From Planctomycetaceae bacterium (GTDB taxonomy: Bacteria; Planctomycetota; Phycisphaerae; Phycisphaerales; UBA1924), in NCBI GenBank assembly GCA_021294835.1, contig JAJTDF010000026.1, forward strand, positions 39,677 to 103,676: a stretch of 64,000 bases of DNA, written 5' to 3'. Below, piece by piece: positions 51,344-53,609 of this stretch. Each line of letters begins with the position of its first letter. The first letter of the stretch is position 1. Below the pieces are notes generated by a model. That model saw only the letters and a list, made by a program, of their open reading frames with translations, searched no databases and was not told where the DNA came from. The position numbers were made by a program, and so were the translations under genes.

Positions 51344-53172
51344 ATGTCGTACACCGTTCTTGCCCGCCGCTACCGCTCGCGTGACTTTGGCGAACTCGTC
51401 GGCCAGAACGCCGTCGCCAAGACCCTGCAGACCGCCATCGCCGAGGACCGGGTGGCCCACGCGTACCTGTTCACCGGCACGCGGGGCGTCGGCAAGACGT
51501 CGACCGCCCGCATCTTCGCCAACGCGCTGAACAACCCCAAAGGCGACCAGGCGATCACCGATGCGATCATGCAGGGGCGCGACACCGACGTGATCGAGAT
51601 CGACGCGGCCAGCAACTCCAAAGTGGAAGAGGCCCGCGAACTGATCGCCAACGCCGTCTACCGGCCAATGCGGGGCATCAAGAAGATCTACATCATCGAC
51701 GAGTGTCACATGCTCTCCACGGCGGCGTTCAACGCGCTGCTGAAGACCATGGAAGAGCCGCCGGCCCACGTGGTGTTCATCCTGTGCACCACCGAGACGC
51801 ACAAGGTGCCGGCGACCATCCAGTCACGCTGCCAGCGGTTCGACTTCCGCAACATCCCCACCGCCGAGATCGCCCGCCACCTGGGCGCCGTGCTGAAGGA
51901 AGAGAAGCGCGAGGCGACGCCGGAACTGCTGCACGCGGTGGCCCGGCTGGCCGCCGGCTCGATGCGCGACGCCCTCTCGCTGATGGACCGGCTGCTGGCC
52001 GGCACCGACAAGAAGCTGACCGTTCCGATGCTGGAGGAACTGCTCGGCCTGCCTGAGGCGCAGCTGGTCTCCACGGTGATCGACGCCATCAGCGCCGGTG
52101 ACGCCGGGGCGGCGCTCAAGGCGGCCGGGCGGCTGCTGGGCCGCGGCACCTCGGGCGACACGCTGCTGGGCAGCATGGCCGAGCGCTTCCGCGACCTGCT
52201 GGTGATCGCCCAGTGCGGCCCCGATCCGGAGTTGCTGGACCTGCCGCCGGAGGTGCTGGCCGAGGCCGAGGCCCAGGCCCGCAAGTTTGACCCTGCGGCG
52301 CTGGTGTACAACATCGCGTTGTGCGACTCGGTGGCCAAGAGCGCCAAGAACTCGGCGTTCCCGCGGGCGGTGATCGACGCGGCCATCTCGCGGATGGCCA
52401 TGGCCGAACGCTTTGCGTCCGCGGGCGTGGTGGCCCGGGCGCCGGTGGCGGTTGGTGCGGGTGCCCCGGTAAAAAAAGCCTGACGCCGGCGGGATCGCCT
52501 GACGATGGGCCCAGTTTCGCGGCCCTCGTGCAGCGTTCAGCGCCGGCGGCAACCGTGGAACCGGTGGTCAGCGTTCGCGCTGTCAGCGGTCCGGCTGCGC
52601 CGGCGACGAGCACACCTGCGCCCGCTTCGCCCGCTCCCGCGGCCCCGCGTCCGGTTGCGCCTGCTGATACTGCGGTCCCGAGCGGCGGGTTGACTGTCGA
52701 CGCGGTGTGGGCCCGCGTGATGGCGGTGGCGGAGCGGTCGGCGAGCATTCGGCTGGTGGTGCGGTCCATGCGGCTGCTCTCGCTGGATGAATCGGGCGGG
52801 CGCGCGGTGGTGAGTTGTCCGGCGGTGCAGATGAGCCTGGTGCAGGGCGTGATGGCCCGGCCGCTGGCGGAGATCTTCAAGGAGGCGACCGGCCGGGCGT
52901 GGACGCTGGTGGTGCAGGAGGGCGAGCCGCCCCCCGCGCCGGCCCCGGCGATGGCTGTGGCAGCGTCTGCGGCGGCGTTTGCAGCGGGAGCGGGTCCGCG
53001 GAACGCAGCGCCCGGCGGCCCGGCTGCCGCTGCGTCGCCTATGCCGGCTCCGCAGATGGGCGGTTCGCCGGCGGCGGACCATCCGCTGGTGCGCAAGGCG
53101 GCGCAGGCGTTCAACGGGCGGGTGACCAAGATCCGGCCTCGGGCCAAGGGCCCGGAGGGCACGGGCAACTGA
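51344..53172 (+). CDS. dnaX: DNA polymerase III gamma/tau; gamma ends 52483, tau by -1 frameshift at A7 (52471-52477) ends 53172
   Basis: YTVLARRYRSRDFGELVGQNAVAKTLQTAIAEDRVAHAYLFTGTRGVGKTSTARIFA; GTA AAA AAA GCC TGA in frame 0; -1 frame continues with tau-like LTVDAVWARVMAVAERSASIRLVVRSMRLLS. Confidence 0.9.
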
Positions 53173-53231: not shown

Positions 53232-53609
53232 GTGTTTGACCAGTTGAAGATGATGGGCGCTGTGGCGAACCTGATGAAGAACAAGGAGGCCATCGCCGAG
53301 GCGGCGGCCCGCGTGCAGGAGAACCTGGAGAAGCGGGTGGTCACTGTCGAGGCTCCGGACAAGTCCATCAGCGTGCAGGTGAACGGCAAGCTGGCGGTGC
53401 TGGAGATTCGCCTCGCCGATCGCGTGGTGAAGGATGCGGCGAGCAACGCCGAGACGCAGGCGAAGATGGAGAAGCTGATCGTCGGCGCTGTGAACGCCGC
53501 CATGGCGCGGGCCAAAGAGATCATTCAGGAAGAGATCAGCACCGAGACGCAGAAGCTGGGGCTGGGCGATCTGGGCGGGCTGAGTTCGCTGGGCAACCTG
53601 CTGAAGTGA
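53232..53609 (+). CDS. YbaB/EbfC-type nucleoid-associated protein
   Basis: Downstream of dnaX; VTVEAPDKSISVQVNGKLAVLEIRLADRVV...LIVGAVNAAMARAKEIIQEEI. Confidence 0.82.
   Translation: MFDQLKMMGAVANLMKNKEAIAEAAARVQENLEKRVVTVEAPDKSISVQVNGKLAVLEIRLADRVVKDAASNAETQAKMEKLIVGAVNAAMARAKEIIQEEISTETQKLGLGDLGGLSSLGNLLK

Follow-up and report, generated by a model that had tools for sequence, protein, structure and literature searches.

We propose that dnaX in the window (the whole stretch of DNA that was analysed, 64,000 nucleotides from a Planctomycetaceae bacterium) makes both gamma and tau from a single mRNA by programmed -1 ribosomal frameshifting, a reading to which we give a probability of about 0.93. 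The original prediction had left open whether the -1 shift is a ribosomal event or transcriptional slippage. Judged from sequence comparison, ribosomal -1 frameshifting is strongly supported over slippage. The genomes themselves display the sequence of the site, its phase and conservation, the statistical signal of stimulators and the homology of the -1 frame; the slip, how efficient it is and what gamma and tau do are inferred.

Organization of dnaX in the window

The gene starts with an ATG at 51344, and its zero frame ends in GTA AAA AAA GCC TGA. The coding region comprises the following features.

51344..52483, + strand: zero-frame open reading frame of dnaX, encoding gamma (379 aa), a clamp-loader ATPase according to translation, Pfam and NCBIfam
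52471..52477, + strand: putative slippery heptamer A_AAA_AAA in X_XXY_YYZ phase, read from the sequence and in the same phase at every A7 site of the family
52481..52483, + strand: zero-frame stop TGA of gamma, one codon past the heptamer
52477..53172, + strand: predicted -1 frame extension of tau (231 aa plus stop), identified with an HMM of the in-frame tau tails of relatives

The -1 frame reads AGC CTG ACG and stays open until the TGA at 53170-53172, which would give a tau of 378 + 231 = 609 aa. Coordinates and translations thus agree with the sizes originally predicted (about 379 aa for gamma in frame 0 and about 609 aa for tau through the -1 frame), and the stop lies, as had been stated, one codon past the slip, the TGA following GCC. 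It had also been claimed that either six or eight A's would fuse the frames. Eight would, but six would not: they lead into the +1 frame, which in the window stops after 7 codons.

Gamma matches the Pfam family DNA_pol3_delta2 (2e-37), and its N-terminal ATPase scores 362.6 bits against the NCBIfam model TIGR02397 (dnaX_nterm, cut-off 250), which places the protein in DnaX. Its presumed orthology with dnaX rests on the full-length match and on synteny. A YbaB/EbfC-like open reading frame follows dnaX at positions 53232-53609 of the window and, by homology, also lies downstream of the gene in many relatives. The A7 run at 52471-52477 is unique within the window (0.26 expected from shuffles), and separate runs of seven or more A's number only about 40 in the whole 3.85 Mb assembly. 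A search of the frameshift site against Rfam gave no match, and PADLOC returned nothing for gamma, as expected.

Conservation of the site

The DNA comes from a Phycisphaerales-like planctomycete, whose close named relatives are metagenome bins of Phycisphaerales and other Planctomycetota. We compared the dnaX site across about 200 related genomes. In the family of the window (f1), 84 genomes were read and 83 were informative. An in-phase X_XXY_YYZ heptamer was present in 78 of these 83: 66 have A7, 2 have A8, 9 have G_GGA_AAA and 1 has C_CCA_AAA. We classed 76 of the 78 as having tau in the -1 frame, including one cut by a contig end (L272); the other two are L003, also cut by a contig end, and L070, where tau is in frame 0. 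The five genomes lacking an in-phase heptamer comprise L071, whose A8 is out of phase, and four A9 genomes (L309-L311 and L339) where frame 0 encodes tau. The first set has 42 sites with a -1 tau; at 39 of them, the zero-frame stop lies 0 or 1 sense codon past the heptamer.

The window genome is a draft assembly of 170 contigs, where a pseudogene or a sequencing error could in principle have produced a tau that is simply broken. The same run, phase, stop and -1 homology nevertheless recur in dozens of independent genera, a conservation that refutes this explanation and leaves it a negligible probability. The conservation of the A run, which had been proposed as a check, speaks for the original prediction: run, phase and stop are repeated in dozens of independent genomes, and a sequencing error is excluded.

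Putative stimulatory elements

Two putative stimulators flank the heptamer in the window.

52457..52464, + strand: Shine-Dalgarno-like (SD-like) stimulator GCGGGTGC, with core GGGTG, 7 nt before the heptamer
52484..52548, + strand: predicted stimulatory stem-loop with a spacer of 6 nt, arms 52484-52491 and 52541-52548

The SD-like element pairs with the anti-SD CACCUCCUUU at -6.1 kcal/mol, which is moderate; the 16S tail GGATCACCTCCTTT was found in relatives. Such upstream elements belong to the bacterial dnaX type of frameshift site, and the signal in the family is strong. The earlier statement that no strong upstream SD-like stimulator was to be seen hence needs amending, since a moderate one is present. 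The stem starts at +6/7, inside the 5-9 nt range expected for -1 frameshifting, and most of its pairs have probabilities near 1. It supersedes the weak GGCG-GGAT-CGCC hairpin placed about 10 nt downstream by the original prediction.

Both signals were detected across the family, the SD-like element about 10-14 nt upstream of the heptamer and the stem beginning 6-7 nt downstream, with p-values that treat related genes as independent and thus overstate the certainty: SD-like pairing in f1 peaks for 8-mers starting 13-15 nt 5' of the heptamer (-5.8 kcal/mol at the peak versus about -2.4 nearby, p = 6e-18 in the first set; p = 1.7e-16 in the held-out f1 set), and the folding z just downstream of the frameshift-type sites is -1.28 (p = 4e-8; 14 control offsets gave about 0), reaching -2.28 in the held-out f1 members (p = 2e-12). 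The held-out second set was gathered after the SD and stem tests had been set up. At A9/A10 sites SD-like pairing shows at most a faint signal (p = 0.07 in the second set, under the same assumption of independence), and we found no stem signal (z of -0.08 in the first set, nothing in the second). The held-out set and the contrast with sister families are stronger arguments than the p-values. Stimulators are weak in a few members of the family (L013, L272 and L286).

Proposed ribosomal frameshifting and its alternatives

Under ribosomal frameshifting, ribosomes that remain in frame 0 on GTA AAA AAA would add one Ala and stop at the TGA, yielding gamma. On others, the two Lys-tRNAs on A_AAA_AAA would move back by one base, so that reading continues with AGC CTG ACG as far as 53172, yielding tau. 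The SD-like element, by pairing with the 16S tail some 7-14 nt upstream, and the GC-rich stem starting 6 nt downstream would both aid the slip.

Alternatively, RNA polymerase could add or drop A's on the A7 run, as in Thermus, with A8 transcripts giving tau. In line with this, the corresponding place carries A9/A10 runs in other families of the class, and two members of the family have A8 in the same arrangement. However, ten members of the family use G_GGA_AAA or C_CCA_AAA, where the A run is only 4 bases. Since these heptamers replace A7, the site is suited to paired tRNA slippage and not to slippage on a homopolymer. Thermus-type slippage goes with an A/T run of about nine or more, longer than the A7 of the window and the runs of its G_GGA_AAA relatives. 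The two types of sites also differ in the frames that do not encode tau. The +1 frame stays open at A7-type sites (median of 66 codons), whereas at A9/A10 sites both wrong frames stop at a median of 3 codons (p = 1e-14, related genes again being counted as independent). When tau is off-frame, it is in the -1 or the +1 frame at A9/A10 sites, but only in the -1 frame at A7-type sites, and the SD and stem signals occur only at the latter. We thus regard transcriptional slippage in the window as improbable. Some points in the window itself weigh the other way: its SD-like element is of moderate strength, about 70 nt are required for its long stem to form, and its +1 frame happens to close early.

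Two A9/A10 genes (L062 and L082) have tau in the +1 frame, where it is expressible only by transcriptional slippage or a +1 shift.

Ribosomes could also re-initiate after the gamma stop and make the tau tail as a separate protein, given that the stop and the downstream frame are close and that an SD-like element lies upstream. Yet only 42 of the 83 sites with tau in the -1 frame have an ATG, GTG or TTG within the first 25 codons of that frame, about 16 nt separate the SD-like element from the first candidate start, and the heptamer is kept in exact phase. We rejected re-initiation, now very unlikely, because there is no conserved start codon.

The tau extension

The Pfam model of the gamma/tau C-terminal domain (PF12362) gave only a sub-threshold match to the -1 frame (E = 0.028). 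Hence, we trained an HMM on 62 tau tails that are in frame in A9/A10 relatives and ran it on the six frames downstream of the site. In the first set it matched the -1 frame of 33 of the 42 genes with a -1 tau, with E = 5.5e-18 for the window, and it found nothing at E < 1e-3 in the other frames of these genes. The remaining 9 genes encode a Pro-rich linker followed by a similar PLVxxAxxxF terminal tail. In an AlphaFold2 model, the extension has one confident domain.

52687..52926, + strand: predicted tau C-terminal DnaA-domain-I/KH-like domain, residues 71-150 of the extension (AlphaFold2 pLDDT 92-96)
53077..53139, + strand: conserved C-terminal tau motif DHPLVRKAAQAFNGRVTKIRP, from the alignment, retained where the middle domain is missing

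The best match of the domain model in the PDB is DnaA domain I (4tps_D, E = 2.8e-4, TM 0.75 by target), and the helicase loader DciA appears further down the structural list. The extension thus consists of a Pro/Ala linker, a DnaA-domain-I/KH-like domain and a PLVxxAxxxF..xVxPR tail. That the -1 frame encodes a Pro/Ala linker and a tau C-terminal-like domain, as first proposed, is borne out by the HMM match and the confident fold. With its flexible linker, this domain and the conserved tail, the extension presumably binds other parts of the replisome.

The middle domain is missing in ten lineages (L005, L007, L009, L012, L014, L021, L042, L073, L075 and L076), which still have the Pro-rich linker and end in a PLVxxAxxxF-like motif. 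The retention of the tail without the domain suggests that the tail itself may be functionally important.

Switches between the two types of sites

Most sites in the other families of the class are A9/A10, lack stimulators and meet a stop in either wrong frame within about 3 codons, and most other classes have no site. In the gene trees the root state is of the A9/A10 type (5 changes versus 7) and f1 is a clade (support 100/99). On the enlarged tree, one type must have changed into the other at least 8 times, although the branches are short, which makes the number and direction of the switches less sure than their existence. Several arrangements coexist in a second family (f2): A9/A10, A7 with a frame-0 tau (the E. 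coli polarity), A7 with a -1 tau, and G_GGA_AAA in both polarities. Sites with the E. coli polarity, where gamma would be made by the -1 shift, were observed in f2 in L043, L053, L312, L313, L320, L323-L325 and L332; one of them is G_GGA_AAA.

Within f1, the A9 genes L309 and L310/L311 are nested among A7 genes. Their stem z is 0.3, 1.0 and 0.0 and their SD pairing -5.0, -2.2 and -2.2 for L309, L310 and L311, respectively, compared with -2.9 and -4.8 in the A7 sister L308. These are apparent returns to A9, with the stem gone and the SD weaker. We consider it quite likely that dnaX in this single order switched repeatedly, apparently both ways, between slippage and frameshifting, that the zero-frame product often flipped between tau and gamma, and that the gamma/tau output was seemingly kept while the mechanism was replaced.

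Since 2000, dnaX has been known to be recoded in some bacteria by ribosomal frameshifting and in others by transcriptional slippage, but the passage from one mechanism to the other was not visible before. The order offers sister lineages across the switch, for example L308 (A7 with stimulators) and L309 (A9 with no stem). It also has intermediates (A8, or A7 where frame 0 encodes tau), apparent returns, and dual-codon heptamers that are not A7. Whether it is the gamma:tau output that is under selection, as opposed to the mechanism, can thereby be put to the test. In practice, routine annotation of the family of the window will overlook tau.

Comparison with known dnaX genes

Like E. coli dnaX, which has A_AAA_AAG, an internal SD and a stem-loop, the window has a three-part cassette with closely similar spacing, at the same place in the same gene and with a -1 shift. 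Our code placed the SD-like pairing of E. coli dnaX at -17 and its stem at about +6. Unlike in E. coli, the polarity is reversed: gamma is made in frame 0 and tau by the frameshift. The heptamers also differ, since all 94 in-phase sites of the order end in AAA and none in AAG. The clade has separate tRNA-Lys for these two codons: a pattern search found both anticodon types (TTT and CTT) in almost all of the 53 genomes covered. A dedicated AAG tRNA has been suggested to make AAG less shift-prone (PMC5009743). Sites ending in AAA fit this idea, as a correlation only, and suggest that separate AAA and AAG tRNAs go with slippery sites ending in AAA. In E. coli, A_AAA_AAA is reported to be much less shift-prone than A_AAA_AAG (PMC5009743), a rank that may differ where the two tRNA-Lys are separate, as here. 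We rejected the loss of tRNA-Lys(CUU) as a route to frameshifting, since nearly every genome has both anticodon types, whichever its mechanism type.

Thermus thermophilus slips on A9 in the same gene, and the A9/A10 genes of the sister families share with it the long A run and the stops in both wrong frames. The window differs from it by its A7, the open +1 frame of its family and its SD and stem signals.

Reversed dnaX genes have been described before: Antonov et al. (2013) reported 17, mostly with A10 and ascribed to transcriptional slippage (PMC3711429), and Chlorobium phaeobacteroides dnaX has A7 and is said to have potential stimulators like those of E. coli (Atkins et al. 2016, PMC5009743). 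Tau production by frameshifting in reversed dnaX is already described (PMC3711429, PMC5009743). Like these genes, that of the window is a two-ORF dnaX where tau needs recoding, with a zero-frame stop just past the site and the tau domain in another frame. Unlike the mostly A10 genes, it belongs to a planctomycete family with A7, G_GGA_AAA and C_CCA_AAA and with statistically supported stimulators. Our literature search found no paper on dnaX frameshifting in this clade, and repeated switching of mechanism and dnaX heptamers other than A7 appear not to have been described.

The zinc-binding module

The four-cysteine zinc-binding module, usual in DnaX and not required for orthology, is absent from the protein of the window (region 51521-51600, gamma residues ~60-85). 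Every genome read from the six families of the order likewise lacks it (0-1 Cys), whereas all but one of the readable genomes of other families of the class and phylum have it (at least 4 Cys). This distribution points to an order-wide loss of the module.
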